Origin: Terriglobales bacterium
GTDB lineage: Bacteria > Acidobacteriota > Terriglobia > Terriglobales > Acidobacteriaceae
Direction: 5' to 3'
Length of the DNA: 48,037 nt
Assembly: GCA_035624455.1 (NCBI GenBank)
Contig: DASPRM010000031.1
Coordinates: 1 to 48,037 of the forward strand
Both the position numbers and the translations under genes were made by a program. Under the pieces are notes generated by a model, which saw nothing but the letters and a program-made list of their open reading frames with translations, was not told the DNA's origin and searched no databases. Each line of letters starts with the position of its first letter. Position 1 is the stretch's first letter. This document shows positions 5,262-26,491 of the stretch, one piece after another.

Positions 5262-5277
5262 CTGGCAGTTCTGACAG
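5262..5277. promoter_or_regulatory. Operator-like dyad, site 1 (CTGGCA-GTTC-TGACAG)
   Basis: One mismatch to CTGTCA-N4-TGACAG. It sits between the divergent helical periplasmic protein (start 5197) and the MscS channel (start 5349), so it could serve either. It also reads as a 9-bp direct repeat (CTGGCAGTT CTGACAGTT). Confidence 0.6.
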
Positions 5278-5348
5278 TTGTTCGTGGCATTGACGTATCT
5301 TAATTTGTCCAAAGGCACCCGTGTGCTCGCCCTCTAGCATCACGCGCA

Positions 5349-7094
5349 ATGAAAAAGCGGATCTTGAGCCTTTGCTTCACGCTGATTACTTGCCTGCTGC
5401 TGCAAGCCGTCCACACCTTGCCTATGGTGGCGCAGCAACCCTCTCCGCAGCCAACAGCCCCGAATCAGTCCGCAGGCAGCAGGCAAGAATCCGTGAAGGA
5501 GGAGATCGAACAGCCCGGCCAGGTCGAGGTCGAAGGACGTGCCATTCTGACCATATACGAGCCCATTGGCACGCTGACACCCGAGGAGCGCGCGGCTGCT
5601 ATTGCAAGGCGCATCATCTTTCTGGCCGGAGGTAGCGCCTCTCCAGATTCCATCCGCTTGCAGCCACGGGATGCCTGGACCGAGATCATCCTCGACAACA
5701 TGGTGATCATGGCAGTTACCGATGCCGACGCCAAGGCCGCCGGCAAGAAACGGGAGCAACTCGCCTTCGAGGACGAGGAGGCCATCCGCCAGGCCATCCT
5801 GAATTATCGTCGCGAGCATAGCTGGCGCTTGCTCATGAGGGGGATCCTCTATGCTGCCATCGCTAGCGTCATCTTATTTCTCTTGCTCTGGCTTCTCCGG
5901 CGCATACGGTTCGCTCTGCGCGACCGCGTACAACGCCGAATTCAGGCCAGCGCGCAAGTCGAGAAGAAGTCTGCCTGGCATGTTTCCATCGCATATCTCG
6001 GTCCGATGGCCCTAGCCCTGGGAGCTTTTGTTCGCTGGGTTCTGATCCTTGGCTTCATTGAAATCTATTTAACGGTGACCCTCGGCTTCTTCTCTCCCAC
6101 CCGGGAAATATCACACACCGTGACCGGGTGGCTGCTTTCGCAACTGGGCACGATGGGTCGGGCGGCGGTGGATTATCTCCCCAACCTGCTGGTCATCGCC
6201 GTAATCACCCTGATCACCAGCTACGCGATTCGCCTGATCCGGTTGTTTTTCGGTCAGATTCAGAAAGGAGATGTCAAAATTCACGGCTTCTACCCTGACT
6301 GGGCAGAACCCACCGACAAGCTGGTTCGATTGCTCGTCCTTGTCCTCGCGCTCATTGTCGCCTTTCCCTACCTGCCCGGCGCAAAAAGTCCTGCCTTTCA
6401 GGGCATCTCGATATTTCTCGGCGTGCTCCTCTCATTAGGATCATCCTCCGCGGTGGCTAACGCGATCGCCGGAATCATCCTCACTTATATGCGCTCGTTT
6501 CTCGCGGGAGACTGGGTTCAGATCGGCGACACCACTGGCGAAGTGGTCGAAAAGACTCTCCTGGTGACCCGCATTCTTACGCCGAAAGCTGAAATCATCA
6601 CCATCCCCAACGCCACAGTGATGAGTGGGTCGGTGAAGAACTTCAGCGTGCAGGCAAAGAAAACCGGCGTCATCTTTTACACCACGGTCACCATTGGTTA
6701 TGACGCTCCCTGGAGGACTGTGCACCAGCTACTCGTAAGCTCCGCGCTTGCCACAAAACATGTCTTGCCCCAACCCGCTCCTTTCGTCCTGCAAGACCGA
6801 TTGCATGACTTCTACGTCGGCTACGAACTCAATGCCTATACCGATGCTCCCCGCGAGATGCTGAACATATTTTCCGAACTCCACCAGAACATCCAGGACA
6901 AATTCAATGAGGCGGGAGTAGAGATCTGTTCGCCGCACTTCTCCTCCATGCGGGATGGCAACACCATTGCCATCCCAGAGCAATACATCCCAGCCGACTA
7001 CAAGGGGCCGGGATTTCGCCTGAAATTGGTTGAAATCGACGCGAAGAATGGCGCCGCGCTCAACCAGATCCGCAACTCGCAGCAGACTCGCTAG
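5349..7094 (+). CDS. MscS-type mechanosensitive channel with long N-terminal region
   Basis: 581 aa inner-membrane channel that would open under membrane tension and release solutes after osmotic downshock. Residues 1-29 form a signal peptide, followed by a periplasmic region to about 165. Hydrophobic segments lie near 165-186, 214-243, 277-296 and 325-343. The pore-lining helix and MscS beta domain start near 350: SIFLGVLLSLGSSSAVANAI, then FLAGDWVQIGDTTGEVVEK, TRILTPKAEIITIPNATVM and the C-terminal alpha/beta part. It is longer than E. coli MscS (286 aa), closer to MscK-like or large MscS proteins. The Shine-Dalgarno is weak. The upstream region shared with the divergent gene carries site 1. 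Family call is secure. Confidence 0.92.
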   Translation: MKKRILSLCFTLITCLLLQAVHTLPMVAQQPSPQPTAPNQSAGSRQESVKEEIEQPGQVEVEGRAILTIYEPIGTLTPEERAAAIARRIIFLAGGSASPDSIRLQPRDAWTEIILDNMVIMAVTDADAKAAGKKREQLAFEDEEAIRQAILNYRREHSWRLLMRGILYAAIASVILFLLLWLLRRIRFALRDRVQRRIQASAQVEKKSAWHVSIAYLGPMALALGAFVRWVLILGFIEIYLTVTLGFFSPTREISHTVTGWLLSQLGTMGRAAVDYLPNLLVIAVITLITSYAIRLIRLFFGQIQKGDVKIHGFYPDWAEPTDKLVRLLVLVLALIVAFPYLPGAKSPAFQGISIFLGVLLSLGSSSAVANAIAGIILTYMRSFLAGDWVQIGDTTGEVVEKTLLVTRILTPKAEIITIPNATVMSGSVKNFSVQAKKTGVIFYTTVTIGYDAPWRTVHQLLVSSALATKHVLPQPAPFVLQDRLHDFYVGYELNAYTDAPREMLNIFSELHQNIQDKFNEAGVEICSPHFSSMRDGNTIAIPEQYIPADYKGPGFRLKLVEIDAKNGAALNQIRNSQQTR

Positions 7095-7164
7095 TAGTGA
7101 CCTCACGTCCTCTCTCCAGCGACTCCCGGCAGACTCGATCCGATCCCGAACATCCGCTATATCA

Positions 7165-7180
7165 CTGTTTCTTTTGACAG
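7165..7180. promoter_or_regulatory. Operator-like dyad, site 2 (CTGTTT-CTTT-TGACAG)
   Basis: Two mismatches, both in the left half. It lies 121 bp before the ppk2 start in the 206-bp gap between MscS and ppk2. It contains TTGACA (7174-7179), which could also be a -35 box, but I see no good -10 at 16-18 bp. Confidence 0.5.
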
Positions 7181-7300
7181 TATCCGCTGCCTCCCCGACC
7201 GAATATGCTCGCAATATCCAATGAGGACAAGTGTGATCGGCGTTCAGGACTGCAAATTCGGCGCCGACGGTTACCTTTGCTCTGGGAGGAGTGATTGCTC

Positions 7301-8122
7301 ATGGCCAACAATGAGACCAAGAATGAAACCAAGAATGGTGCCGATGGCTTAAGCAATAAGCAGTACATGAAGGAGCTCAGGCGCCTTCAGGCGGAGCTAT
7401 GCAAACTTCAGGATTGGGTCAAATACAAGGGCCTGCGTGTGATCGTCGTGTTTGAGGGCCGCGATGCCGCCGGCAAGGGCGGCACCATACGCGCCCTCAC
7501 CGAACGCGTCAGCCCACGGATATTTCGTGCGGTCGCACTACCGGCTCCCTCCGACCGCGAAAAAACTCAGATGTACATGCAGCGCTACATGCACCAGTTT
7601 CCCGCAGCCGGCGAGATCGTGATCTTTGACCGCAGTTGGTACAACCGGGCTGGCGTAGAACATGTGATGGGGTTCTGCACCAAGGAACAGCATCGCCGTT
7701 TTCTCGATCTTTGCCCGCTGATGGAAAAGACCATCCTCGATGCCGGCATCATTCTCATCAAATATTGGCTAGAAGTGGGGAAAAAGGAACAGCAACGCCG
7801 CTTCGAGGCGCGTATCAAGGACCCCCTACGCCAGTGGAAGCTGAGCCCCATGGACCTGGAATCCTTTCGCCGCTGGTATGACTACTCGCGCGCACGCGAC
7901 ATGATGCTGAAAGCCACCGACAGCAAGCACGCTCCCTGGTACATCGTTCGCTCCGACGATAAGAAGAAGGCTCGGCTCAACTGCATCTCACATTTTTTGA
8001 GTCTGATCCCCTACAAGAAAGTTCCGCGAGAGAAGGTGAAATTGCCGGCGCGGGAGAACGCAGGCCACTACGACGATCAAGCCTCACTCAAGGGAAGGCG
8101 CTTCATTCCTGAGAAATACTGA
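7301..8122 (+). CDS. ppk2: Polyphosphate kinase 2 family protein
   Basis: 273 aa cytoplasmic enzyme that transfers phosphate between polyphosphate and nucleotides, usually NDP to NTP in this single-domain type. Visible motifs: Walker A in FEGRDAAGKGGTIRAL (residues 51-66), the PPK2 Walker B FDRSWYNRAGVEHVMGF (109-125), and the lid region RRFEARIKDPLRQWKLSPMD. The tail DDKKKARLNCISHFLSLIPY is also typical. Length matches one-domain (class I-like) PPK2; NDP versus NMP preference cannot be read safely. ATG 7301 follows GGGAGGA with a 10-nt spacer, and a TTG at 7295 is a possible alternative. It heads a same-strand run with SulP, VIT1/CCC1 and an outer-membrane protein. Site 2 is upstream. Confidence 0.93.
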   Translation: MANNETKNETKNGADGLSNKQYMKELRRLQAELCKLQDWVKYKGLRVIVVFEGRDAAGKGGTIRALTERVSPRIFRAVALPAPSDREKTQMYMQRYMHQFPAAGEIVIFDRSWYNRAGVEHVMGFCTKEQHRRFLDLCPLMEKTILDAGIILIKYWLEVGKKEQQRRFEARIKDPLRQWKLSPMDLESFRRWYDYSRARDMMLKATDSKHAPWYIVRSDDKKKARLNCISHFLSLIPYKKVPREKVKLPARENAGHYDDQASLKGRRFIPEKY

Positions 8123-8240
8123 TTTGTATTTGGTAGCGATTCGATTCCTGCTCCGTTTTGGCATACCGGGAAGGATTGCGAAGCCCCACGCGTCACCCGG
8201 CGGCGCGACTTGCTGATTCCGAGGAAGGCCGAGCGAACCT

Positions 8241-10623: not shown

Positions 10624-10624
10624 G

Positions 10625-11278: not shown

Positions 11279-11294
11279 CTGTCAACAGTAACAG
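11279..11294. promoter_or_regulatory. Operator-like dyad, site 3 (CTGTCA-ACAG-TAACAG)
   Basis: One mismatch. It lies 13 bp after the outer-membrane protein stop and 125 bp before the DUF4136 gene start, its likely target. Confidence 0.6.
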
Positions 11295-11418: not shown

Positions 11419-11979
11419 ATGAAGCGACTTTCCCTCATCTCAATCGCGCTGCTCTTTTTCCTGGCGAGTAGCGCAGTCGGCCAGGATGTTCGCTACAACT
11501 ACGATAAGAATGCCGATTTCTCCAAGTTCAAAACCTACAAATGGGTGACCCTAAAAGACGCAAACAAGGTCAACGATCTGGTCGATCAACAGATCAAGTC
11601 GACCATAGACGCGGAGCTGGCCAAGAAAGGCCTGTCAAAAACCGATTCGGACAGTGCAGATCTTTACGTTGGTTACCAGGCCGGCGTGGGCCAGGAGAAG
11701 CAGTTCACCTCCTACAATACCGATTGGGGATACGGTCCTGGCTGGTATCGCGGAGGATGGTACGGCGGTGGAGGCGGGATGACCACCGGTCAGACTTCCA
11801 CTATCTATATTGGCCAGCTGGCCGTGGACATGTATGACTCAAAGGGTCATGACTTAGCGTGGCGAGGTATCGCCAGCAAAACCATCGATACTAAAGCCAA
11901 GCCAGACAAACAGCAGAAAAACCTGACCAAGGCGGTAGCGAAGCTGCTAAAGAACTTCCCCCCGCCTGTGAAGAAATAA
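11419..11979 (+). CDS. DUF4136 secreted protein
   Basis: 186 aa. ATG 11419 follows GGAG with an 8-nt spacer and opens a signal peptide ending SSAVGQ. The mature protein starts DVRYNYDKNADFSKFKTYKW, the hallmark of DUF4136 proteins, with VDQQIKSTIDAELAKKGL, SADLYVGYQAG and a later GQLAVDMYDSKGHDLAWRG. A Gly/Tyr/Trp-rich loop sits at about residues 110-124. The protein lacks a lipobox, unlike many family members. Function of DUF4136 is not established; periplasmic or outer-membrane-associated location is inferred. Site 3 lies upstream, and a hairpin between it and the convergent neighbour probably ends both transcripts. Confidence 0.85.
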   Translation: MKRLSLISIALLFFLASSAVGQDVRYNYDKNADFSKFKTYKWVTLKDANKVNDLVDQQIKSTIDAELAKKGLSKTDSDSADLYVGYQAGVGQEKQFTSYNTDWGYGPGWYRGGWYGGGGGMTTGQTSTIYIGQLAVDMYDSKGHDLAWRGIASKTIDTKAKPDKQQKNLTKAVAKLLKNFPPPVKK

Positions 11980-12118: not shown

Positions 12119-12793
12119 TCAGTTCTGCCGATCGGTGTCCCGATCCGCGATGAGCTTCTTGAGTTCCTGCTTCTGCTGTTTTCGCATGGCTTCGAGCTTC
12201 TCGACCTGGGCAGGGGTGAGAAGAGGCTTTAACTTAGCGTCGGAAGAGCGCACGATTTTCTCGTATGCGGCAAGTTTCTCTTTCTGGGAGAGCACAGGAT
12301 TTCCCCAATACTGCCCGGCCTCACCGACTTCCTGCTCCAAGATCGGTCTGATCTTCGTCTGCTGGTCTTCGGTCAGGTTCAAGGCCTCGGAAAGATGTTG
12401 CATCTTCATGCTGAAGTATTGGCCGGGCGCCTTGGTCCAATCGATTTTGGCTGGTGCAGTTATGGACTCGCGCCGCAGGATGGGGACTTCGGTCTTGCCG
12501 GAAAGATCACTGTAAAAAGTTATGGTCTCGGCTCCGACCAAGACTGGCAGATCTCTTCCTGCCACATACGTGACTGTCGTCGTGCCATTGGGCGGTGTAT
12601 AGAGAACCACATAAAGCGTGTTTCCGACCTTCACCGAGACGTCATACCGGGGAGTGCCGCTGGCTTTGTCTTGCGGTGTGTCTTGGTGGGCAGTCACTGC
12701 CATGATGGTGCCTGACTGGTACTTGGTGGAGGAGGTCTGAGCGAAGGCTGACAGAGTCGCGCAGAGCAGTAACAGAACCAGCCGCTTTGTCAT
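12119..12793 (-). CDS. Secreted protein with C-terminal LTxxQ/Spy-like helices
   Basis: 224 aa. ATG 12793 is preceded by GGAGGG with a 7-nt spacer and opens a signal peptide ending LSAFAQ. Residues about 20-110 form a beta-rich part (YQSGTIMAVTAH, YDVSVKVGNTLYVVLYTPPN). Residues 130-224 are helical with ALNLTEDQQTKIRPILEQE and LTPAQVEKLEAMRKQQKQEL, the LTxxQ repeat pattern of Spy/CpxP-type periplasmic proteins. The highly charged C-terminus is likely solvent exposed. It is transcribed towards DUF4136. A perfect CTGTCA-N4-TGACAG dyad is 105 bp upstream. Envelope-stress chaperone activity is inference from the helix motif only. Confidence 0.75.
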   Translation of the reverse strand: MTKRLVLLLLCATLSAFAQTSSTKYQSGTIMAVTAHQDTPQDKASGTPRYDVSVKVGNTLYVVLYTPPNGTTTVTYVAGRDLPVLVGAETITFYSDLSGKTEVPILRRESITAPAKIDWTKAPGQYFSMKMQHLSEALNLTEDQQTKIRPILEQEVGEAGQYWGNPVLSQKEKLAAYEKIVRSSDAKLKPLLTPAQVEKLEAMRKQQKQELKKLIADRDTDRQN

Positions 12794-12897: not shown

Positions 12898-12913
12898 CTG
12901 TCAACAGTGACAG
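12898..12913. promoter_or_regulatory. Operator-like dyad, site 4, perfect (CTGTCA-ACAG-TGACAG)
   Basis: No mismatch to the consensus. It lies 105 bp upstream of the Spy-like gene (start 12793) and 69 bp after the stop of the response regulator, so the Spy-like gene is the likely target. Confidence 0.7.
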
Positions 12914-12981: not shown

Positions 12982-13629
12982 TCAGGCAGCGATTATGTGG
13001 TTTCTGACCGCATAGCGCACCAGCTCGGCATTACTCTTGGCGCCAAGTACTTCCATGATCCGATACTTGTGAAAGGCTACGGTCCTGGTGGTCATGTTGA
13101 GAATGTCGCCGACTTCCTTCATTACTTTTCCTTCCGCCAGTAACTGCAAGACCTCGCGTTGCCTTTCTGTCAGGCGAGCGTCTTCTTCCACCTTGCGGGT
13201 ATCCTGCCGGCGCAGGTAATTGATGGTGTCCTTGGGCAGCGTCCGCGACATGTAGGTGTTTCCTCGAAGCACTTCACGGACGGCAGTCAACAATTCCGCA
13301 CCAGCACAGGTTTTGAGCAAATAGCCGGAACCACCGCGACGGAAGGCTTCGGCGGCGACTTCGGGATCGGGGTTCATGGTTAGGAACACCAGCTTGACCG
13401 CCGGCATCTGTTCCTTGATCTGCTGCCCGGCATCCAGACCATTGAGGACGGGCATGGCGATATCGATGACAATAAGGTTGGGTTGCAACTCCGCAGCTCT
13501 ACGAACCAGGGCACGTCCATTGCTTACGGTGCCGACCACCTCATATTCGGATTCGAGTAGCTTTTTGCACAGCTCAGCAACGAGGTTGTGATCGTCTGCG
13601 ATAAGAATGCGAGGGCGATTGGCTGGCAT
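12982..13629 (-). CDS. NarL/FixJ-family (LuxR HTH) response regulator
   Basis: 215 aa DNA-binding regulator. ATG 13629 is preceded by GGAGGG and gives MPANRPRILIADDHN, a standard receiver start; earlier in-frame starts add unrelated residues. Receiver domain 5-120 with acidic pair D12/D13, phospho-acceptor D56 in LIVIDIAMPVLNG, T84 and K106. The LuxR-type HTH domain (about 150-215) shows LTERQREVLQLLAEGKVMKE and TTRTVAFHKYRIMEVLGAKS. The NarL-type kinase at 16357-18111 is a plausible partner. This is the only DNA-binding regulator I see in the window and so the first candidate to bind the recurrent 16-bp dyad, whose 7-2-7 layout fits this family. That link is inference. Confidence 0.93.
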   Translation of the reverse strand: MPANRPRILIADDHNLVAELCKKLLESEYEVVGTVSNGRALVRRAAELQPNLIVIDIAMPVLNGLDAGQQIKEQMPAVKLVFLTMNPDPEVAAEAFRRGGSGYLLKTCAGAELLTAVREVLRGNTYMSRTLPKDTINYLRRQDTRKVEEDARLTERQREVLQLLAEGKVMKEVGDILNMTTRTVAFHKYRIMEVLGAKSNAELVRYAVRNHIIAA

Positions 13630-14032: not shown

Positions 14033-14806
14033 CTAAACCAGCTTACGAAACACTCTGATCCCGAGCGACGAGAGCAGGCTTAATGCACCCAGCAAGCCAA
14101 AGAGAGGCAGCAGGCTGCTGGTCTTCGGCAAAGCGGCAGTTTCAGTGGCAGCAGGGGCTGAGGGTGCCGGTGTCGGTGCAGCCACTGCAATCAGGATGGG
14201 AACATCCGCCGGAGGCGGTGGCGGGGGCGCGGTTCCGGTCAGCTCTTTGTGCTGACTGACAAAGGTCACTGGCTGTTCCACAATCCTGGTTGCCGAGACC
14301 TTCATGCCTTTCTTCAAGCCCCAGGCATCCGTCATTTGTCCGTTGACGTTGAATTGCTGTCCTTTGGGGATGTTGAATTTCTGATTAGTACCGTCCTCCA
14401 GGGTCAGGATGACGGAGTTGGGCGGACTTACATGCCAGACCGTCCCGGTGACACTCTGCACCGTGGTAACGACCTTGGGGGTGGTAGTGGTGGTTATGGT
14501 CCTCTGAAGCTTCATGCCGGGCTTCAAATCGTGAATCCCGAGTTGCTTTCCGTCGACCGTAACGCGGGCACTTTCCGGCACATTGGAAATGTGGCGAATG
14601 GTACCGTCTTCCATTTTCACTACCAGGTCATTGCCCGAAACATACACCACCTCGGCGCGTTCCACCTGCACTTGCTTGGTGGACGGTTCGGCGGCGGTAG
14701 AGGTTTGCGTTTGCACCTGTGCGCTGACATTCAAGGCCGTGGCCATGCAAATAGCCGCTACCGCGAGCGCCAGCCACAGTTGTGTCCATCTGTTGCCTGG
14801 GTTCAT
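14033..14806 (-). CDS. Secreted protein with C-terminal LPKTS sorting signal (probable sortase substrate)
   Basis: 257 aa. ATG 14806 is preceded by AAGGAG with a good spacer. A signal peptide spans residues 1-30. The middle has two similar modules: EVVYVSGNDLVVKMEDGTIR with IHDLKPGMKLQRTI (about 51-104), and GTVWHVSPPNSVILTLEDGT with AWGLKKGMKVSATR (about 121-174). A proline/alanine linker (about 194-220, with PPPPPP) leads to LPKTS at 226-230, a hydrophobic helix to about 250 and a basic tail RVFRKLV. That tripartite C-terminus is the classical layout for sortase anchoring, with Ser in place of Gly of LPXTG. The sortase gene is 68 bp upstream on the same strand, so it is probably the dedicated enzyme. 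What the surface protein binds is unknown. Confidence 0.82.
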   Translation of the reverse strand: MNPGNRWTQLWLALAVAAICMATALNVSAQVQTQTSTAAEPSTKQVQVERAEVVYVSGNDLVVKMEDGTIRHISNVPESARVTVDGKQLGIHDLKPGMKLQRTITTTTTPKVVTTVQSVTGTVWHVSPPNSVILTLEDGTNQKFNIPKGQQFNVNGQMTDAWGLKKGMKVSATRIVEQPVTFVSQHKELTGTAPPPPPPADVPILIAVAAPTPAPSAPAATETAALPKTSSLLPLFGLLGALSLLSSLGIRVFRKLV

Positions 14807-14874: not shown

Positions 14875-15585
14875 TTACTTCACATTTGCCTTAGCATCTG
14901 TTTCGCTGAAGCGGAGTTTTGAATTCTGTTGCGCGGATTCTCTCAAGTTCGAATCCACGCGCGAAGCCTGCACGATGTAGCGCTGAGGAGCGCTGCCCAC
15001 GAAATAAAAGGGATAGCAGGTCACCAACGTCAGGGACGGCTGCTGGCGTGGCGCGAGTACAGAGACGTCGTTGGGATCGACGATGATCATGCGATCGATG
15101 CGGTAAGTGTTGGTTTCTGTTTGCGTATCTATTTCGATCGTGTCTCCCAGAACTACGTCCTTGAGTCCGCGAAAGAATCCGTCACGATGACCGGCAATAG
15201 CGATGTTGCCGTCATCTCCGGGACGAGCCGTGCCGGCAATGAGTCCGACCCCGCGGTTGAGGCTGAGATCGTCAGTGCCATTGAGCACCGGCACTTCCAG
15301 GCGAATTTTGGGAATACGAAGAATGGCGCTGGCGGGAGTGAAGTGGACGGCTAAGCTTTGCTGGTACTCCTTGATCCGCTTCTCTGACCAAAGGCTGAAG
15401 TCAGGGCTGCCCGCGGTCATCACGATCTCAGGGGATTGATTTCGCGAGGCGGTCTGCTCGCTCTTAAACCGCTGAACCTCTGCTCGGGAAAGAATAGCGC
15501 CGTGGATGCGCGCGCCCAGATACAGGGCGAGCAACAGCCCGCCGGTGATCGCCAACACAAATTCCAACTTGCCTAGCCGACGCAT
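14875..15585 (-). CDS. Class D-like sortase
   Basis: 236 aa membrane-anchored cysteine transpeptidase. One N-terminal helix (about 8-24) acts as the anchor. The catalytic domain carries His133 in IAGHRDGFFRGL, Cys190 in LTLVTCYPFYFVG and Arg202 in SAPQRYIV, the complete sortase triad. Sequences such as GNIAIAGHRD and TLVTCYPF resemble class D sortases. The enzyme would cleave its substrate between Thr and the following residue and join it to an acceptor. The downstream gene encodes one LPKTS protein. The acceptor in a diderm cell is not obvious. Start ATG 15585 is chosen; a GTG at 15597 adds four residues. A promoter and a perfect dyad (site 5) are upstream. Confidence 0.92.
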   Translation of the reverse strand: MRRLGKLEFVLAITGGLLLALYLGARIHGAILSRAEVQRFKSEQTASRNQSPEIVMTAGSPDFSLWSEKRIKEYQQSLAVHFTPASAILRIPKIRLEVPVLNGTDDLSLNRGVGLIAGTARPGDDGNIAIAGHRDGFFRGLKDVVLGDTIEIDTQTETNTYRIDRMIIVDPNDVSVLAPRQQPSLTLVTCYPFYFVGSAPQRYIVQASRVDSNLRESAQQNSKLRFSETDAKANVK

Positions 15586-15686
15586 GATTACCACCACAGC
15601 TTAGAGTGAGTTCGCTTCTCCTTGCATCAACGAGGTGGCGCGAATACCACTCAGAGGCTCGCCGGTCAGCGGCAATTGCGAGCCGA

Positions 15687-15740: not shown

Positions 15741-15756
15741 CTGTCATTACTGACAG
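15741..15756. promoter_or_regulatory. Operator-like dyad, site 5, perfect (CTGTCA-TTAC-TGACAG)
   Basis: No mismatch. It lies 156 bp upstream of the sortase start and 15 bp after the stop of the receiver-only regulator. The sortase-substrate operon is the evident target. Confidence 0.7.
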
Positions 15757-15771
15757 GTCCGGAGAACACTC

Positions 15772-16188
15772 CTACCCGCCTTTCTCCTCTTGCACATAGA
15801 GCAGGTTTGGGGACACAAAGAGCTTATTGGTCAGTACCGCATGAATGGCAGTGATCAGGTCCAGGCTGAGCCTGGATTTGACGACGTAAGCGGCTGCACC
15901 CACGCCCATGGCTGCGTTGACGAAGTCAGCGTCCTCATGGACGGTGAGAAAGATGATCTTGGAATTGCAACCGGAGTCTCGCAGCCGCCGGGCCACATCA
16001 ATACCGCTCAGTTCGCCCATGGAGATATCGAGTACGATGATGTCGGGGTTCAGACGGAGAGACTCGGCCAACACTGCTGCACCGTCCTTTACAGCCCCGA
16101 CTACGTTGTAGTCGGCCCTAAGCAATTTCGCGACCCGATCGAGGACGGCGGAATTATTGTCGGCGAGCAATACGCTTACTTTGGGCAC
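15772..16188 (-). CDS. Receiver-only response regulator (CheY-like)
   Basis: 138 aa, one REC domain and no output domain. GTG 16188 is chosen because AAGGAG stands 5 nt before it and it starts directly with PKVSVLLADNN; the longer frame up to 16284 has no receiver homology. Visible residues: D10 followed by Asn where a second acid is usual, phospho-acceptor D54 in IIVLDISMGELSG, T82 and K104 in YVVKSR. The sequence is close to NarL-type receivers, so it may have lost its HTH. It could be a phosphate shuttle or sink for the neighbouring kinase. Its own upstream gap carries site 6. The D-to-N change could weaken Mg2+ binding. Confidence 0.88.
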   Translation of the reverse strand: MPKVSVLLADNNSAVLDRVAKLLRADYNVVGAVKDGAAVLAESLRLNPDIIVLDISMGELSGIDVARRLRDSGCNSKIIFLTVHEDADFVNAAMGVGAAAYVVKSRLSLDLITAIHAVLTNKLFVSPNLLYVQEEKGG

Positions 16189-16323: not shown

Positions 16324-16339
16324 CTGTCAAAACTGACGG
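16324..16339. promoter_or_regulatory. Operator-like dyad, site 6 (CTGTCA-AAAC-TGACGG)
   Basis: One mismatch. It lies 135 bp upstream of the receiver-only regulator start and 17 bp after the kinase stop, so the regulator appears to have its own promoter. Confidence 0.62.
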
Positions 16340-16356: not shown

Positions 16357-18111
16357 TCAGCTAGCCTGCTGCACGAACGACTGTGCGCTCCGTTTGGCCT
16401 GCACGGCAGGAACCGTGCCTTCGATCTGAGTGCCCAAGGAGGGCCGCGACCAGACCACAAGGTGCCCGCCGGCGGACCTGAGACGCTCACGCATGCTGAT
16501 CAGACCAAGGCCGTGACGTGCAGAGTCGCGGTCCGGATCAAATCCGACTCCATCGTCGGAAACGCGCAAGCGAACTACAGTCGAGTGGCGCACGAGTTCC
16601 ACTTTTGCATGAAGAGCCTGGCTGTGTTTCGCTACATTGCGGAGTGCCTCCTGAGCCGTGCGGAACAGGCTGAGAGAAACGTTTTCGTCCAAATCCGGCG
16701 GCAGGTCCCGCGCGGTATATTCGACGCTGATCTTATGCTGCCGTGAAAACTCCTGGCAGAGTTCGCGGACAGCAGATCCCAGTCCGAGATATTGCAACTT
16801 CGAAGGATGCAATCGGTGGGACAGATGCTGAAGGTCGCTGGCGATTTCGTTGGTCAGTTGCCACAGTTCGTGGATCTGATCTTCCTGGCGAAATCCATTG
16901 TTGCTGTTCTGTGCCGAGACTTGCTCGAGTTGTTGCAAGCCATTGGCCAACAGCGCCAATCTCTGATTGATATCGTCATGTAATTCCCTGGCGATGCGTG
17001 TGCGCTCGTTCTCCTGGGCCTGAATCAAGCGACCGCCGAGTCGTGCGCGTTCAGCCCGGGCCTCTCTTTGTTCGGTTACGTCGATGCAGCAGCCGATATA
17101 GCCGGCAAAATTACCGTTCTCCAGGAAACGAGGAGCACCACGATCAAGGATCCAACGGAATTCGCCGTCATGACGGCGCAAACGGTATTCCATTTCAAAC
17201 GCTTCCCGGTTGTCGAAGGCGTGCGTGTAAATTCGAATGCAAGCTGGCAAATCATCCGGGTGAACAGCGTGCGTCCAGCCATCTCCTAGTTCCTGTTGCA
17301 GGGTACGTCCCGTGAAGCGCAACCACTCCTTGTTGAAGTCGGTACAAAGTTTGTCCGGTCCGGATAACCACATCATGACCGGCGCCGAATCGCTCATCAG
17401 GCGGAATCTGTTTTCGCTCTCCAGCAGCGCCAGTTCAGCCCGCTTGCGATCCGTGATGTCGATAGCTGCCCCCAGTATGCACGGCCTGCTGCCAATCTCA
17501 ATCAGTTCGGCGGAAGCCTGGGCAACGCGAAGTTCGCCACCCCTGGTGCGATATTGAAACTCAATGTCACGAAGACGGCCCTCGGATAGGAGCCGTTTCG
17601 CCAGGGTTGATCTCTCGTAGGGGTTCGCCCAGAGTCCCATGTCGCGTATAGAGTGCCCAATAACCTCCTCCCGGCGATATCCCGTGAGTTGTTCATAGGT
17701 CTCGTTTACATCGATGTAGCACTGGGTCTGGGCATCGGTCAGGGTGAGGACCATGGGGCCCTGGCGAAATGCCTTGGAGAACTTTTCCTCCGACTTCCGT
17801 AGTTCTTCTTGCGCCGCTGCTTCTTTTTGACGCAGCCGTTCTTCGGCCTGGTGGTGGGTGATGCGATCGCGAAGCAGCAAGGCAATGAGCAAAAATTCGA
17901 TGGTTATGAGGGCGTAAAGCCACGGGAGTGCTCCGCCCGAGGGAGTTCCGACAGCCAGGCTGAACCCGGTGATTGTTGCGCCGGTAGCGGCCATCTGCAT
18001 ATGACAGGGAGAGAGGAAGAGCAGTTGCAGTTGGTGCAACTCGGGCTGAGTAATGTCGAGGCCAGCAGCCGCAGGAAGAGGAAAATTCAGGACACAAAAG
18101 AGAATCAGCAC
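16357..18111 (-). CDS. PAS-domain sensor histidine kinase, NarL-partner (HisKA_3) type
   Basis: 584 aa from GTG 18111; no Shine-Dalgarno is visible there, so the start is uncertain and a shorter form from MQMAATG is possible. N-terminal hydrophobic stretches (1-16 and about 62-80) suggest membrane attachment. A short coiled coil precedes two PAS domains (about 105-225 and 230-350). The dimerisation motif ARELHDDINQRLALLANGL places the phospho-His at 378. The ATPase domain has N492 in EALRNVAKH and the G box DDGVGFD (519-525). This kinase type partners LuxR-HTH regulators; the receiver-only gene follows directly and a LuxR-type regulator lies 2.7 kb further on. PAS ligand unknown. Confidence 0.93.
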   Translation of the reverse strand: MLILFCVLNFPLPAAAGLDITQPELHQLQLLFLSPCHMQMAATGATITGFSLAVGTPSGGALPWLYALITIEFLLIALLLRDRITHHQAEERLRQKEAAAQEELRKSEEKFSKAFRQGPMVLTLTDAQTQCYIDVNETYEQLTGYRREEVIGHSIRDMGLWANPYERSTLAKRLLSEGRLRDIEFQYRTRGGELRVAQASAELIEIGSRPCILGAAIDITDRKRAELALLESENRFRLMSDSAPVMMWLSGPDKLCTDFNKEWLRFTGRTLQQELGDGWTHAVHPDDLPACIRIYTHAFDNREAFEMEYRLRRHDGEFRWILDRGAPRFLENGNFAGYIGCCIDVTEQREARAERARLGGRLIQAQENERTRIARELHDDINQRLALLANGLQQLEQVSAQNSNNGFRQEDQIHELWQLTNEIASDLQHLSHRLHPSKLQYLGLGSAVRELCQEFSRQHKISVEYTARDLPPDLDENVSLSLFRTAQEALRNVAKHSQALHAKVELVRHSTVVRLRVSDDGVGFDPDRDSARHGLGLISMRERLRSAGGHLVVWSRPSLGTQIEGTVPAVQAKRSAQSFVQQAS

Positions 18112-18337: not shown

Positions 18338-18353
18338 CTGTCAGTGTTTACAG
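18338..18353. promoter_or_regulatory. Operator-like dyad, site 7 (CTGTCA-GTGT-TTACAG)
   Basis: One mismatch. It lies in the divergent gap, 227 bp before the kinase start and 234 bp before ATG 18587 of the outer-membrane protein; either could be the target. Confidence 0.6.
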
Positions 18354-18586
18354 TTTGCAGCACCCGATAACAGCGGTTAGGATTCGCACGTGCGCGCATG
18401 GATCCGCGATCAGCACGTGGGTTGACGCCACGAAATTTACGATCCCCTCAGGGTGGCGCGGGGAGACCTTCCGATGGCTGGCCTCTCTAAGCCGCCCTGC
18501 CTGCATGTGAGGACCTGGCTTTGGTGGTTCAAACGACGGGCGAACCGGCGCGCTTCGGTCGGCGACGCTTAGGCTCCGGGATCGGC

Positions 18587-19525
18587 ATGCGGGTCTTTCT
18601 AAGGGTTCTGTTATGCGCCGGGATAGCGGTCTGGCCGGCGGGCCTGGGCGCGCAGGATCTGGCGCCGCGAGCTTATCTCATTACGCCGATACGTTCCAAT
18701 GCGGTGACGTTAACCTATTCGTACTTCAGCGGCAACGTTCTTTTCGATGGCGCGGTTCCGATAACCGATGCAACCTCCACAAGCAGCGTGATCGCGTTCA
18801 ACTACACACACTCGTTGAGCTTTTTCGGACGTACCGCCAGCTTCCTGGCGGTGCTGCCCTATGGAGTGGGGAACTTTCAAGGGACGGTAGCGGAGGTTCC
18901 CAGAAATGTCTACCGCTCGGGCTTGCTGGATTGCGCTTTCCGCCTTGCCGTCAATCTGAAGGGCGGGCCGGCTATGGAGTTGCGAGACTTTATCAAATGG
19001 CGGCAGAAAACCATTATCGGCGCGAGCCTAAAGGTGGTGGCTCCGACCGGTCAGTACGATCCGACGGTCTTAGTCAACTTAGGCAGCAACCGATGGGCCT
19101 TCAAACCAGAGATTGGATTGTCTCGACGTCGGGGTCACTGGGTGATTGATGTGTACGGAGCGGTTTGGTTCTTTACTACCAACAGCGAGTTTTTCTCGCA
19201 CAATCAATTTAATCCTGGTGTTGCCACGCAATCGCAGAGTCCTACCGGAGCGTTCGAAGGACATCTCAGTTATGACGTAAGGCCGCGGCTTTGGGCCTCG
19301 CTGGACGGCAATTTCTGGACTGGCGGGCGGACCAGCCTGAATGGCTTGCAAAACCCGGGCACGCTGCAGAGGAACTCGCGTGTTGGCGGGACAGTTTCGA
19401 TCCCTGTGAGCAAGCGTTACTCGGTAAAATTCAGCTACAACAATGGCGCTTACATCCGATATGGCGGAAATTATCAGAACATTTCCGTGGCATGGCAGTA
19501 TTCCTGGATAGGGGGGCCGAAGTAA
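18587..19525 (+). CDS. Outer-membrane protein resembling the MetA-pathway/transporter family
   Basis: 312 aa from ATG 18587, which gives a compact signal peptide (MRVFLRVLLCAGIAVWPAGL). TTG 18521 has a better Shine-Dalgarno and would add 22 residues, so the start is open. The mature protein is a beta-barrel type sequence: APRAYLITPIRSNAVTLTYS, LAVLPYGVGNFQG, IGASLKVVAPTGQYDPTVLV, NRWAFKPEIGLS and a C-terminal strand region. The pattern LITP..N.VTLTYSY and VAPTGQYDP matches what I know of the putative MetA-pathway of phenol degradation/outer-membrane transporter family. Function is unproven; the family name does not imply phenol use here. It is divergent from the kinase and shares the site 7 region. 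Confidence 0.75.
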   Translation: MRVFLRVLLCAGIAVWPAGLGAQDLAPRAYLITPIRSNAVTLTYSYFSGNVLFDGAVPITDATSTSSVIAFNYTHSLSFFGRTASFLAVLPYGVGNFQGTVAEVPRNVYRSGLLDCAFRLAVNLKGGPAMELRDFIKWRQKTIIGASLKVVAPTGQYDPTVLVNLGSNRWAFKPEIGLSRRRGHWVIDVYGAVWFFTTNSEFFSHNQFNPGVATQSQSPTGAFEGHLSYDVRPRLWASLDGNFWTGGRTSLNGLQNPGTLQRNSRVGGTVSIPVSKRYSVKFSYNNGAYIRYGGNYQNISVAWQYSWIGGPK

Positions 19526-20130: not shown

Positions 20131-20146
20131 CTACCAGTTCTGACAG
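20131..20146. promoter_or_regulatory. Operator-like dyad, site 8 (CTACCA-GTTC-TGACAG)
   Basis: Two mismatches. It lies 75 bp upstream of the minus-strand membrane protein and 28 bp before the TATAAT of the DUF481 gene. Confidence 0.5.
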
Positions 20147-20209: not shown

Positions 20210-20225
20210 CTGTCATTTCTGCCAG
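20210..20225. promoter_or_regulatory. Operator-like dyad, site 9 (CTGTCA-TTTC-TGCCAG)
   Basis: One mismatch. It lies 120 bp before the DUF481 gene start and 79 bp (about 7.5 helical turns) after site 8. Confidence 0.6.
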
Positions 20226-20345: not shown

Positions 20346-21401
20346 ATGAACACTCGAAGTATTGTTCTTTTTCTTGCACTCCTCCCAGCTATGCCCCTCC
20401 TTGCCCGGGATAAGACGGATGTGCTGATCATGAAGAACGGCGATCACATGATGTGCGAGGTGAAGGGGCTGGATGCAGGTGTGCTGTATGTGAGCTTCGA
20501 CTACATCGACGGCACAGCTTCGGTTGATTGGTCGAAAGTGGCCCGCCTGGAAAGCCAGCAGTTATTCGTTGTGAAAACAGAGGATGGCTCTGTCTACATG
20601 GGAACGCTGCGTACGCCGGAGACGGCCGCCGACCGGCCGGTAAGAATTCAGGTAGTGAAGGAGCCGGATCAGGAACAACTGCTTGAAGTCTCGCAAATCG
20701 TGCAAATGATTGCGACTTCAGACAAGTTCTGGCAGCGCTTCAACGGCGAGGTAGGCTTTGGAGTAATCTACTCAAAAGGCAATCAATCGACTCAGTACAG
20801 CTTGAGCTCGGAAACAGCATACGTTCGCGAACGCTGGAGTGCCGGAGCCAGCTTCGATTCCAACCTATCCTCCAGCTCCGGGACGAATGCTTCCACTCGC
20901 AACTCTTTGATTCTGAGCGCTCGGCATTTAATGAGACAAAACAATTGGTTCTACTCTGGGCTGGCGTCATTCCTGCAGAGCTCGGAGCAGGGAATCTCAT
21001 TGCAGAGCACATACGGCGGCGGGGTGGGGCGGTATTTGAAGAACACAAACCGTGCAAGTATCGCGCTGCTTGGGGGCGTTGCCTACCAAAAGACGGATTA
21101 CAAGCAATCGAGCACTTCTCTAACGGGCCAGAACGTTGCAGCAGCATTGATCTACGCAGAAGCAAGGCTGTTCAAATTCAGCAAAACCAATCTCAACGTA
21201 ACCGCGGCGCTTTTGCCAGCTTTTTCTGACCCAGGACGGGTACGATTCGGTACGAATGCGGCGTACTACATCAAGATCGTCAGCAATCTGAAATGGAATG
21301 TCTCGTTCTATGGGAACTGGGACAATCGGCCGCCGCCTGGGTTTTCCGGAAGCGATTACGGAACCAGTTCAGGACTCACCTGGACATTCGGCCTGAAGTG
21401 A
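20346..21401 (+). CDS. DUF481 (YdiY-like) outer-membrane protein
   Basis: 351 aa. Start ATG 20346 with signal peptide MNTRSIVLFLALLPAMPLLA. Residues about 22-110 form a small N-terminal part (TDVLIMKNGDHMMCEVKGLD) seen in many DUF481 proteins. From about 130 the DUF481 barrel follows: FNGEVGFGVIYSKGNQSTQY, then repeated amphipathic strands, ending in GTSSGLTWTFGLK. The GxxxSxGN-type motif is typical. YdiY in E. coli was described as acid- or salt-induced, so a stress role would fit the island, but this is inference. Two dyads and a TATAAT lie upstream, the densest such promoter in the window. Confidence 0.87.
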   Translation: MNTRSIVLFLALLPAMPLLARDKTDVLIMKNGDHMMCEVKGLDAGVLYVSFDYIDGTASVDWSKVARLESQQLFVVKTEDGSVYMGTLRTPETAADRPVRIQVVKEPDQEQLLEVSQIVQMIATSDKFWQRFNGEVGFGVIYSKGNQSTQYSLSSETAYVRERWSAGASFDSNLSSSSGTNASTRNSLILSARHLMRQNNWFYSGLASFLQSSEQGISLQSTYGGGVGRYLKNTNRASIALLGGVAYQKTDYKQSSTSLTGQNVAAALIYAEARLFKFSKTNLNVTAALLPAFSDPGRVRFGTNAAYYIKIVSNLKWNVSFYGNWDNRPPPGFSGSDYGTSSGLTWTFGLK

Positions 21402-21947: not shown

Positions 21948-22044
21948 AAGCGACTCCAACTCCTGCAGCCCTTAGACCGCACGTTGCCCGCCGCTCTAGC
22001 TTGCGAGGGCAAGCAAGCCAACAGAAGCTTCGTATTTTACGGCT

Positions 22045-24786: not shown

Positions 24787-24854
24787 TGCTCTCTCCTTAT
24801 GGTGTGCCTGTAAGTGCGCTGTTGTATAAGAACTACTCGATCCCGCAGCGTGTT

Positions 24855-26384
24855 CTATGCCCGTTTCACGGGCGAACATCGAAGAAAGTGATAGTGCCAG
24901 GGCTCGAGTTCCACGTAGAGACCTGGCGACCGCATCTGATTTCCGTCGCGCTCAAAGACCGCGCCTGAGAGCAGGTCGGCTAACTTCCAGTGTCCGCCGG
25001 GCACATCAGCCCACGGAACTTGAACCTGGGCCTGTGAGGTGTAATCGCTCAGGTTGACAACGATAAGGTACCACTCGTCGCCCCGCAACCAGCTCCAGGC
25101 GACCAAATTCTGGAAGCTGGCATTATCCGGCCAACCGGTACGCTCGCACAAGGCCCATTGGCCTTCGTGAAAAATGGGGCGATGGATGGATTCCAGGAGC
25201 TTGCTATAGAAGGTGTGCAAGTTGGAATCGACGGGTTCAGTAGGACGCCTGCCCAGAAAGACCGGAAGTCTTACCTTGCGACCATCGAACTGCCCTTCAT
25301 GGAATAACTTTGCTCCAGGCAGAGTGGCTGTGGTCAGGGCAGCGGCTTCTTGCTTTGCGGGTAAGAAGGTTGCCGCCGCCCGTGGCTCGTCGTGGTTCTC
25401 GATGAAACGCAGCAGTTTGGCCTGGTACGCAAGATCAGCACAGAGATGAAGGCGGGCGCTTTCGGCATTGCCGTGTTCCAGCCGATCGTAGAGCTTCTTG
25501 TCATAGCAGAAGTCAAAACCTTGCTGCTGGAGATCCCATTCCAGATCCCAGTAAGCTTCGGCAGCGAAGAGGAATCCGGGATACTTCTTCTTGATCGTGA
25601 CGATCAAATCGATCCAATACTCGGTTGCGGGCCGCGGTCCAGCACGGCTACCCCAGGTACGCTCGAAGACCTGGTTCAGGAACAACATTGCCATGTCGCA
25701 ACGAATCCCGTCGCATTGCTGGGCAATGCTGGAGACGGTCTCAATCGCAGATTGTCGAAGTCCGGGGGCAAACGCGTTCAACTGCACGACGTCTTGCCAT
25801 GCGGGAAAGTAAGGGTCACGTCCGCGTGCAATGACATTTCCATGCACCTCAATGAAGGAGGAGGGATCATTGCGCAGATCGCCGGCGTTGCCACGGATGA
25901 AGTACTCGGGATGTTCGGCGGCCCAGGGATGATCTGGCGCGACATGATTCGGAACGAAGTCGAGAAGCAGGTTCATGCCGCGTTTGGCGAGTTCTCGGCG
26001 GGCGACCGCGAGACCTTCAGGACCTCCCAGATGCCGGTCAACGGCGTAGCCACGGATGCAGTAGGGGGATCCCACATTGTCGTCGGGACGAAAGTCGGGA
26101 AGGGCGCGGCGGAAATCGGCAAGCAGGTTTTGGTTCTGATTAGAGATCGCGATACCGGCAGGACTCCGTTCCCAAACCCCCATTAGCCAAACAGCGTCGA
26201 AACCATAAGAGGCAATGGCATCCCATTCGGCCGAAGGGACCGCGGACAAATCAACTTTCTTCCCGTATTTCTGGCCTAGCTCGGAAAGCCAGACCCAGGT
26301 GTTGATCTCATAGAGAGAAGGGTATCGGGGCCAGACAGACACCCTGGCTGGCGCTACTCTTGGTTCAGCCAGAGTCGCACTCAT
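24855..26384 (-). CDS. GH13 alpha-amylase-family hydrolase
   Basis: 509 aa, no signal peptide. ATG 26384 is preceded by GAGGAGAA. The (beta/alpha)8 barrel has conserved region I DFVPNHVAPDHPW (His147), region II GIRCDMAM with nucleophile Asp230, region III FAAEAYWDLEWD with acid/base Glu276 and region IV FIENHDEPRAA with Asp332, so it should be active. A C-terminal beta domain holds WYLIVVNLSDYTSQAQVQVP. The cytoplasmic location with a GH63-like glucosidase and a SemiSWEET downstream suggests storage-glucan or trehalose/maltose metabolism. The upstream gap, shared with the OmpA-like gene, carries sites 10 and 11. Subfamily and substrate not determined. Confidence 0.9.
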   Translation of the reverse strand: MSATLAEPRVAPARVSVWPRYPSLYEINTWVWLSELGQKYGKKVDLSAVPSAEWDAIASYGFDAVWLMGVWERSPAGIAISNQNQNLLADFRRALPDFRPDDNVGSPYCIRGYAVDRHLGGPEGLAVARRELAKRGMNLLLDFVPNHVAPDHPWAAEHPEYFIRGNAGDLRNDPSSFIEVHGNVIARGRDPYFPAWQDVVQLNAFAPGLRQSAIETVSSIAQQCDGIRCDMAMLFLNQVFERTWGSRAGPRPATEYWIDLIVTIKKKYPGFLFAAEAYWDLEWDLQQQGFDFCYDKKLYDRLEHGNAESARLHLCADLAYQAKLLRFIENHDEPRAAATFLPAKQEAAALTTATLPGAKLFHEGQFDGRKVRLPVFLGRRPTEPVDSNLHTFYSKLLESIHRPIFHEGQWALCERTGWPDNASFQNLVAWSWLRGDEWYLIVVNLSDYTSQAQVQVPWADVPGGHWKLADLLSGAVFERDGNQMRSPGLYVELEPWHYHFLRCSPVKRA

Positions 26385-26475
26385 TGCGAATTCTCCTCGT
26401 ACGCGCGCAGAACACCAGCGGAGGACACTACAGCAGAACGCTACAGATGCTAAACGGATTCGCTCGACCCTGGCA

Positions 26476-26491
26476 CTGGTAGAAATGACAG
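26476..26491. promoter_or_regulatory. Operator-like dyad, site 10 (CTGGTA-GAAA-TGACAG)
   Basis: Two mismatches in the left half. It lies 91 bp upstream of the GH13 start in the divergent gap shared with the OmpA-like gene. Confidence 0.5.

Follow-up and report, generated by a model that had tools for sequence, protein, structure and literature searches.

The question raised by this locus is whether the 16-bp dyad CTGTCA-N4-TGACAG, which recurs in the window (the whole 48,037-nt stretch of Terriglobales DNA analysed here), marks an undescribed regulon, and which protein would read it.

Dyads are in excess and lie between genes

With up to two mismatches allowed, 12 matches to the dyad were found in the window versus 1.6 expected, and none of the 100 dinucleotide shuffles that served as the null (mean 1.6, sd 1.25, largest 6) reached 12. 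At up to three mismatches the excess was small (26 matches versus 18.1 expected; 2 of the 100 shuffles reached 26). In the genome to which the window belongs, 15 dyads were counted with at most one mismatch versus 5 for a reversed-pattern control, and 157 versus 104 with at most two. Because the control is so high at two mismatches, the latter count was rejected as a measure of regulon size.

The original prediction listed ten copies between 5.2 and 26.5 kb, all intergenic, all with the 4-bp spacer and two of them (12898 and 15741) perfect. The coordinates, spacer, perfect copies and placement held in full: all ten lie in intergenic DNA, in a stretch of which 85% is coding (0.15^10 = 6e-9), and the nearest facing gene start, as called in this analysis, is 72–179 bp from the dyad centre. 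The further claim, that no copy lies outside 5.2–26.5 kb, failed literally, as two matches with the same spacing and 2 mismatches each lie at 42417 and 47361. Since both are within coding DNA and neither was recovered in the promoter-element scan, they are consistent with the chance expectation. The comparisons proposed with the prediction, against shuffled sequence and between intergenic and coding DNA, confirmed the excess in the window and showed that the sites favour intergenic DNA.

The dyad and a -10 element form a composite promoter

Sites aligned toward a gene whose start lies within 310 bp gave 90 site/gene orientations. In 49 of these, a TANNNT -10 element begins 30.5–32.5 bp from the dyad centre, against a background from the other three-offset windows that averages about 2 in total (0.88+0.76+0.36). 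The sequence between dyad and -10 varies, whereas the spacing is conserved. In addition, a T asymmetrically flanks the dyad at 55 of 65 oriented sites. The refined operator reads CTGKCA-NWWN-TGMCAG followed by T, with a TAGNNT-like -10. The ten sites are as follows.

5262..5277, both directions: operator, 1 mismatch, -10 TAATTT / TAGTGT at +31.5 each way, facing the MscS gene (+) and 4688-5197 (-)
7165..7180, +: operator, 2 mismatches, strong right half, -10 TATGCT toward ppk2
11279..11294, +: operator, 1 mismatch, -10 TAACGT toward the DUF4136 gene
12898..12913, -: operator, perfect, -10 TAGACT toward the gene of the 224-aa, weakly LTXXQ/Spy-like protein
15741..15756, -: operator, perfect, -10 TACTGT toward the sortase operon
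16324..16339, -: operator, 1 mismatch, -10 TACCAT toward the stand-alone receiver gene
18338..18353, +: operator, 1 mismatch, -10 TAGGAT toward the outer-membrane protein gene only
20131..20146, no strand: dyad, 2 mismatches, no -10 at the standard offset
20210..20225, no strand: dyad, 1 mismatch, no -10 at the standard offset
26476..26491, both directions: operator, 2 mismatches, -10 TATGAT toward the OmpA gene and TAGCAT toward the GH13 gene

At 5262 the flanking T is absent in the minus direction. The genes that these sites face, other than those of the sortase operon and the receiver, encode the following.

5349..7094, +: MscS-type mechanosensitive channel, predicted target
7301..8122, +: polyphosphate kinase 2 (PPK2), predicted target
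11419..11979, +: DUF4136 protein, predicted target
12119..12793, -: 224-aa protein with a weak LTXXQ match, predicted target
18524..19525, +: outer-membrane protein of the Phenol_MetA_deg family, predicted target
20346..21401, +: DUF481 protein, possible target, no standard -10
24855..26384, -: GH13-type protein, predicted target
26637..27584, +: OmpA-family protein, predicted target

Three details of the original prediction did not fully survive. It treated all ten sites as regulatory, and those at 20131 and 20210 lack the promoter element; it named a histidine kinase among the targets, and site 18338 faces the outer-membrane protein gene, not that of the kinase; and its Spy-like target rests only on a sub-threshold LTXXQ match (E 0.039, 15.1 of 24.3 bits).

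Because the -10 offset is fixed at 30.5–32.5 bp from the dyad centre, the dyad is placed near -43.5. This position, which matches that of activators whose sites overlap the -35 region, and the weakness that we ascribe to the -10 hexamers starting TAG (27 of 49), as at activator-dependent promoters, are both inferred from sequence alone. A -35 element (TTGACA) within the right half of the dyad was ruled out, because its distance to the -10 would be 24 bp.

Composites with at most three mismatches numbered 146 in 645 kb from 18 sources, where 18.5% of the DNA is non-coding; 141 were intergenic and 126 properly placed upstream of a gene. In this set some loci overlap, and many regions were picked since they held a match. 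No loose composite occurred in the 141 kb of upstream sequence taken from control loci. Among the fetched regions, a composite promoter precedes only 2 of the 14 genes for DUF3300 proteins and 19 of the 54 for receivers or regulators.

These data bear on three other readings of the dyad. The first, that the dyads are chance matches, terminator stems or a dispersed repeat, has in its favour the two coding matches of the window, which are at chance level. It is all but excluded: the shuffles and reversed-pattern controls rule out a chance or repeat origin, and the intergenic placement upstream of gene starts and the conserved spacing across varied intervening sequence also speak against it. The second holds that the dyads are repressor operators, where a bound protein would occupy the -35 region and so keep RNA polymerase off the promoter; the dyad does overlap that region, where repressors also sit. 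A repressor, however, would not need a -10 spacing held to 1–2 bp at dozens of promoters, and the -10 elements often start with TAG, taken as weak, which makes this reading very unlikely. The third, that the dyad is part of a promoter for an alternative sigma factor, would account for the fixed distance to the -10 and for the asymmetric T. We consider it less likely still than the repressor reading, since the gap of about 23 bp between the right half-site and the -10 is wider than sigma-70-class promoters allow between their -35 and -10 elements, the two-fold symmetry marks a dimeric protein, and the sites at 5262 and 26476 have a -10 on both sides. Binding of an activator remains the preferred reading.

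Sites recur in relatives, and the gene of the proposed regulator lies among them

Conservation was observed for the sites at 7165, 11279 and 12898. The 16-mer at 12898 is identical to one upstream of the relative of the 224-aa gene in genome G036 (L071:12407), the MscS/ppk2 junction carries a similar asymmetric site in loci L103 and L185, as at 7165, and the DUF4136 relative in L185 also has an upstream site, as at 11279. In G036, 29 dyads were found versus 2 for the control, and 22 of the 29 lie on one 72-kb contig and are nearly all intergenic. The claim that the programme is encoded mostly beside its own regulator gene is about half true for the genome of the window, as this contig holds 8 of its 15 sites with at most one mismatch and 4 of its 10 strict composite matches. 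The regulator gene sits amid sites in the window, G036, G031, L103, L104 and L105. Three genomes with high plain-dyad counts (G021, G028 and G030) were rejected as bearers of the same regulon; their dyads are scattered, with 0, 0 and 1 strict composites, respectively.

Composite promoters co-occur with a LuxR/NarL-type response regulator

The two-component genes of the window are as follows.

12982..13629, -: LuxR/NarL-type response regulator, receiver plus GerE HTH, proposed activator
15772..16188, -: stand-alone receiver protein, related to the receiver domain of the regulator
16357..18111, -: PAS-PAS-HisKA_3-HATPase histidine kinase, proposed partner kinase

The regulator has an N-terminal receiver domain (Response_reg, 1.7e-24) and a C-terminal HTH (GerE, 7e-16). 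Residues D12, D13, D56, T84 and K106 are invariant in a two-sequence alignment; receiver residues of this kind, including the phospho-acceptor Asp, have known roles. No NCBIfam model reached its cut-off among the 25 best of 105 matched models; MctR came closest (147 of 300 bits), and NarL scored 114.3 of 250. A HisKA_3 kinase is also encoded nearby in G036. In the window, the promoter of the regulator gene has neither a composite nor a site with at most two mismatches, although in G036 the related gene is preceded by a perfect operator.

Among 298 genomes of the order, 17 contain four or more composites, and 16 of these 17 encode a relative of the regulator (E<=1e-52), versus 1 of the 258 genomes without such a relative that reaches four composites (Fisher 8e-15). 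After removal of the motif-defining genomes G000 and G031, the regulator was present in 14 of 15 (p 4e-13). Within genus g55 only G152, and within g57 only G116, has both the regulator and at least four composites. The association is incomplete in both directions: 24 of the 40 genomes with a regulator match have fewer than four strict composites, and G295 has four composites and no regulator match. In several genomes, which encode two or more related regulators, any of the copies could be the one that binds.

Operator position 3 differs along with the recognition helix

In 12 genomes whose regulators carry -RT[VI]A[FY]HKY recognition helices, position 3 of the operator is G in 72 of 73 loose composites. 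In genomes with -GTVAF[HQ]KY helices it is G in only 4 of 17 and A in 11 of 17 (p=2e-11). The latter composites come from five of six genomes, since G078 yielded none; 11 of the 17 come from G252, and G265 and G300, which also have the changed helix, were left out of the comparison. In G265, whose best regulator is of the changed-helix type, G is kept at position 3 (2 of 2). The changed helix is confined to one derived regulator clade and therefore counts as one event. These results would fit a recognition helix and operator that changed together at least once; binding data are lacking, and the broader reading of which this forms a part could as readily fail as hold.

The helix difference also bears on a further rival, in which the dyad is the activator site of another regulator, for example of the CRP/FNR type, and the two-component genes are targets rather than the master. 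CRP/FNR proteins bind short dyads near -41.5, and their class II sites resemble a dyad near -43.5. In addition, the two-component genes do count among the targets, because the stand-alone receiver gene is itself a predicted one. Against this rival, the LuxR/NarL-type regulator, the only one compared in this way, tracks the composites over 298 genomes, also within genera, and operator position 3 differs along with its recognition helix. Furthermore, no CRP/FNR-type domain was found among the proteins of the window and G036 that were put to Pfam, which were not all proteins and received no dedicated search. We regard this alternative as unlikely. The original prediction, of one regulon with an envelope theme read by the product of 12982-13629, is instead supported independently by the composite promoters, the phyletic co-occurrence and the operator/helix difference, and is likely to be correct, in the absence of binding data.

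A sortase and its proposed substrate are a recurrent predicted target

The sortase operon contains two genes of interest.

14033..14806, -: proposed sortase substrate, 257 aa, apparently secreted, with C-terminal LPKTSS, hydrophobic stretch and basic tail
14875..15597, -: sortase (Pfam PF04203), above an SrtD model cut-off

The sortase domain is clear (PF04203, 1.4e-31; TIGR01076, 94.2 of 39.35 bits), and of the two SrtD models one was passed (NF058671, 152.2 of 140 bits) and one was not (NF033746, 139.2 of 165). His, Cys and Arg have catalytic roles in sortases, and the H of [GA]HRDG, the C of TL[VI]TCYPF and the R of AP[QN]R are conserved in all eight aligned sortases. A protein ending in an LPxT-type sorting signal is encoded beside 17 of 30 sortase genes, and none was found beside the other 13. 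In all 17 the motif is LPxT[GAS] with residues after it that never form ATN, so that none matches the LPxTATN for which class D sortases (SrtD) are specific. The signal is LPKTG in six aligned family members of the 257-aa protein, beside other sortases. A TIGR01167 LPXTG scan of the window's genome gave four weak matches (two above the cut-off), the 257-aa protein not among them; the scan is uninformative, because the model gave matches in 14 of 14 control genomes (nine above the cut-off).

A composite promoter with at most two mismatches was present ahead of the sortase gene in 10 of the 18 genomes that have the regulator and in none of the 12 that lack it (p=0.0016). Of the eight genomes with the regulator but without this strict promoter, three have a CTAGCA-type one with 3–4 mismatches.

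Proposed mechanism and relation to known systems

The sites, their fixed promoter spacing, their conservation and their co-occurrence with the regulator are shown. That they belong to a two-component activator regulon for the envelope, hitherto undescribed and patchy in its distribution, is likely, binding and signal being untested. In the absence of binding or expression data, it is only inferred that the regulator contacts the sites directly and activates transcription, that the kinase is its partner and that the sortase acts on its substrate; the signal is likewise a matter of inference. In the proposed mechanism, the histidine kinase (16357-18111) would phosphorylate the regulator (12982-13629), a step that the stand-alone receiver (15772-16188) may tune. 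The active dimer would occupy CTGTCA-N4-TGACAG, centred at about -43.5 relative to the transcription start, where it would replace the -35 element and bring RNA polymerase to the TAGNNT-like -10. The predicted targets are envelope and stress genes, namely those for the sortase and its LPKTG-type substrate, MscS, PPK2, DUF4136, the weakly Spy-like protein, OmpA and further outer-membrane proteins, and in places the DUF3300-DUF2950 pair, together with some central-metabolism genes.

A bolder reading, which we would neither favour nor dismiss as a whole, is that a gained-and-lost, self-contained two-component programme remodels the diderm envelope on demand in some soil acidobacteria. Its common output would be a sortase that attaches one dedicated LPKTG protein covalently to the wall, together with OmpA-type, DUF4136 and other envelope proteins, and helix and operator would have changed together. 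If this is true, the co-change provides a natural specificity series for LuxR-type response regulators.

Two-component activator regulons as a kind are already known. NarL, UhpA, UvrY, DosR and VraR govern regulons of the NarL/FixJ (LuxR-type) class, which the present system resembles in its receiver and GerE order, nearby HisKA_3 kinase, proposed short dyad operator and inferred activator position near the -35 region. It differs from them in that its predicted targets are an envelope programme including a sortase and in that it reaches the cut-off of none of the 25 best-matching NCBIfam models; their known operators also differ from CTGTCA-N4-TGACAG. The envelope-directed targets, including a weakly Spy/CpxP-like protein, recall the enterobacterial Cpx, Rcs and Bae envelope-stress systems; CpxR and BaeR, however, are OmpR-type rather than LuxR-type. 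The class GN ('proteobacterial') dedicated sortase system (TIGR03784/TIGR03789) likewise pairs a sortase with one neighbouring LPXTG-type substrate and has two-component genes and the gene of an OmpA protein in the vicinity. Unlike in that system, the present sortase scores 83.7 of 158.25 bits on TIGR03784, and the OmpA protein 42.4 of 152.2 bits on PdsO (TIGR03789).

No such regulon is named in the relevant passages of PMC7074687 and PMC3174227, and none was described in the part of the literature searched, which omits most subscription papers. To our knowledge, few regulons have been defined in the Acidobacteriota, a phylum abundant in soil. The present regulon can be read from sequence, as its composite promoter distinguishes the genomes of the order that bear it with little background. 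It places families of unknown function (DUF4136, the LPKTG protein and, in places, DUF3300/DUF2950) in a shared regulatory context. It also supplies, for a phylum of diderm bacteria, a proposed pair of sortase and substrate whose regulator can be tested, and the two operator types and two helix types within one regulator family make specificity directly testable. Among the families concerned, the E. coli DUF3300 gene yacH has been reported to be CpxR-regulated (PMC9600279), DUF3300/DUF2950 were co-localised and induced in two transcriptome studies of root-nodule bacteria (PMC4653623), and sortase is among the functions with more copies in Solibacter (PMC3174227).

Dyad sites in the window and the rest of the genome

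The 16-bp dyad CTGTCA-N4-TGACAG is likely to mark a regulon, new in itself and of a kind already known; the finding is sound, although no experiment supports it. No description of the operator or the regulon was found in the literature searched, the coverage of which was partial. The original prediction of this regulon held, with stronger support after checking than as written.

The sites and their spacing are shown directly. All ten dyads that had been listed, at 5262, 7165, 11279, 12898, 15741, 16324, 18338, 20131, 20210 and 26476, are present with the 4-bp spacer, two of them are perfect as claimed, and all are intergenic, as claimed, in a region with 85% coding DNA. With up to 2 mismatches the window contains 12 matches, compared to a mean of 1.6 and a maximum of 6 in 100 dinucleotide shuffles; the two not listed before (42417 and 47361) each lie within a gene. 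Allowing 3 mismatches leaves little signal above background (26 matches versus 18.1 expected).

The window spans the whole of contig C31 of the source assembly (4.39 Mb, 166 contigs), in which 15 sites with up to 1 mismatch were observed, compared to 5 for the reversed pattern. Eight are on C31 and the rest on C11, C119 (3), C120, C134, C141 and C163; 14 of the 15 are intergenic by our own gene calls, the exception being the C141 site. The calls came from an in-house script without a standard annotator, and the assemblies are draft and metagenome assemblies. At 2 mismatches, 157 sites were found versus 104 for the control. Because of this distribution and these control counts, the claim that the regulon lies mostly beside its own gene held only in part: the cluster is real, yet roughly half of the strong sites are on other contigs.

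Promoter geometry

The placement of the sites is also shown. We assembled 70 intergenic sites with up to 2 mismatches from the own genome (23), G036, a genome of the same family but a different genus (36), and other loci (11); two contigs of the own genome, C141 and C28, carry coding sites and were excluded. A flanking gene start, at any distance, faces 69 of the 70, and the remaining site lies where a retrieved sequence was truncated. When the 65 sites with full flanks and a nearest start within 270 bp were oriented toward that start, T, A and T were prominent at +31.5, +32.5 and +36.5 from the dyad centre, and T was present at +8.5 in 55 of 65. Among 90 site/gene orientations whose gene start is no more than 310 bp away, TANNNT began at +30.5 to +32.5 in 49 (own genome 17/35, G036 27/44, others 5/11), compared to means of 0.88, 0.76 and 0.36 and maxima of 3, 4 and 2, respectively, in other three-offset windows. 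Taking the hexamer as a -10 element at -12 to -7 places the dyad centre near -43.5, inferred to be where an activator contacts polymerase in place of a -35 element.

In the window, 8 of the ten sites have the -10 element toward a gene, two of them both ways. A window-wide scan for the composite (dyad, flanking T and -10; up to 4 mismatches) gave 10 matches, nine at these sites and one coding (8910). The dyads at 20131 and 20210, which lacked a standard-offset -10 in the window scan, are 79 bp apart between divergent genes, possibly a looping or repression arrangement.

Conservation and co-occurrence with the regulator

The genes considered here are as follows.
12982-13629 (-), LuxR/NarL-type response regulator by domain content
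14033-14806 (-), LPKT-type protein, proposed sortase substrate
14875-15597 (-), sortase
15772-16188 (-), stand-alone receiver
16357-18111 (-), PAS-PAS-HisKA_3-HATPase histidine kinase

The regulator scored below cut-off on each of the 25 best of the 105 NCBIfam models that it matched.

Conservation is shown among relatives. Among 61 genomes (the own genome and 60 relatives), G036 has 29 sites versus 2 for the control, and a single 72-kb contig holds 22 of them, nearly all intergenic. This contig encodes relatives of the window regulator (76% identity), stand-alone receiver (62%), kinase (47-51%), outer-membrane protein (61%), DUF481 protein (38%), OmpA (36-39%) and Spy-like protein (57%), the last with an identical 16-mer upstream. 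Sites are present at each locus of the closest regulators in named genomes, from a Silvibacterium MAG (L103, 73%), a Ca. Sulfotelmatobacter MAG (L104, 72%) and an Acidobacteria gp1 MAG (L105, 67%), ranked in a scan keeping only the best 80; none were found at three loci of more distant regulators (L108-L110) scanned identically. Sites persist at equivalent junctions, such as MscS/ppk2 in the window, in L103 and in another genome of the order, G031. The G036 cluster also contains a sulfatase gene (L068:1742-4051) and a sulfatase-modifying-factor gene (L068:9142-9993), each with a dyad upstream.

The co-occurrence of sites and regulator is likewise shown. The composite pattern CTGNNANNNNTGNCAGTN{21,23}TANNNT, scanned in 298 genomes drawn from the order, was found in 64, with at least 4 copies in 17 (range 4 to 12, 142 matches in total) and 64 matches together in the remaining 47; the reversed pattern gave 1 or 2 matches in some 31 genomes and none in the others. 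At E<=1e-52, 40 of the 298 encode the regulator, including 16 of the 17 genomes with at least 4 composites (exception, G295), and only 1 of the 258 genomes lacking it reaches 4 (Fisher 8e-15). Without G031 and the own genome, which helped to define the motif, the figure is 14 of 15 (4e-13). The converse is looser: fewer than 4 composites were counted in 24 of the 40 genomes with the regulator. The contrast is also seen within genera (only G152 in g55, only G116 in g57). Related genomes are not independent, which affects these statistics and the other counts, and some loci overlap.

Two related regulator genes less than about 11 kb apart were observed in each of five genomes (G105:C7, G031:C1, G172:C69, G134:C34 and G252:C54); such pairs would allow heterodimers or divided target sets.

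Predicted targets and inferred mechanism

Of the 146 composites in 645 kb of DNA from 18 sources, 126 are in the correct position upstream of a gene. These regions were partly selected for their composite matches.

Table. Family members with a composite promoter in the 645-kb set
Receivers/regulators: 19/54 (12 sources)
Sortase: 8/8
PPK2: 5/10
DUF4136: 8/10
MscS: 4/6
Spy-like protein: 3/3
OmpA: 4/8
DUF481: 2/4
Outer-membrane protein: 2/4
DUF3300: 2/14

A fairer count for the sortase, which has a match (E<=1e-20) in 113 of the 298 genomes, used the best sortase locus from each of 30 of them: a composite (up to 2 mismatches) precedes it in 10 of the 18 genomes that have the regulator and in none of the 12 that lack it (p=0.0016). 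An LPxT-type sorting signal is encoded just downstream in 17 of the 30, comprising 11 LPxTG (8 of them LPKTG), 5 LPxTA and the window's own LPKTS. The window sortase scores above the SrtD model cut-off and below those of the class D subfamily model and TIGR03784; class D sortases use LPxTATN, whereas the substrates found here differ. The protein at 14033-14806 (-) is apparently secreted, with two similar halves and a C-terminal LPKTSS; the 16 signals outside the window mostly continue into a PL-x-GLLG stretch.

Composites of the own genome off C31 precede DUF3300, DUF4136/phosphoglucomutase, fumarase, glucose-6-phosphate dehydrogenase and a 155-aa protein; on C120, DUF3300 was assigned from its similarity to the copy on C119. 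A DUF3300-DUF2950 pair recurs near operators (L060:1018-3450, L061:680-2882, L070:8379-10874, L071:3436-5714, L104:6485-8558 and L185:7118-9571); the own genome and G036 each have two copies. In root-nodule bacteria such pairs are reported to lie together and to be induced (PMC4653623), and CpxR is reported to regulate the E. coli DUF3300 gene yacH (PMC9600279).

In the mechanism that we infer, the regulator would bind the dyad and activate the target promoters, with the neighbouring kinase as its putative partner and the stand-alone receiver, which carries D54, T82 and K104 in alignment, predicted to modulate phosphoryl flow; the sortase would join the LPKTG protein to peptidoglycan. Judging from the target list, the unidentified signal could be envelope or osmotic stress.

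Recognition helix and operator variants

In site-rich genomes, the regulator helix is mostly -RT[VI]A[FY]HKY (first type). In a nested clade (11 rows, support 100/99), glycine replaces arginine, mostly as KPGTVAFHKY (second type). Regions on the 20-kb scale were sampled from six genomes with a second-type best regulator. In the 25.4 kb of upstream DNA that they contain, the loose composite CT...A-N4-T...AGT with a -10 was counted 18 times, compared to 0 in shuffled DNA and 0-1 at other -10 offsets; none were found in the sampled region of one of them, G078, or in 141 kb of upstream DNA at 60 control loci. CTAG[CT]A is common as the left half-site, and a stricter CTAGCA composite gave 5 matches in 4 of 8 second-type genomes and none in 8 first-type sample genomes (G300 included).

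After overlaps were removed and the two mixed genomes, G265 and G300, were set aside, operator position 3 was found to be G in 72 of 73 composites from 12 first-type genomes, versus G in 4 and A in 11 of 17 second-type composites (p=2e-11). G252 supplies 11 of the 17; A is present in all 6 that come from the four other genomes. Of the two genomes set aside, G265 has the changed helix in its best regulator and G at position 3 in 2 of 2, and G300, with both helix types, has 8 G and 1 A. This paired difference, inferred from sequence alone, supports regulator-operator contact and does not prove it, because it represents one evolutionary event.

In G030:C1 near 1,957,000, a regulator of 50% identity is flanked by degenerate, partly overlapping dyads of the CTGGCA-N4-TGCCAG type (L186:8479, 9717 and 9726), conceivably a third operator type.
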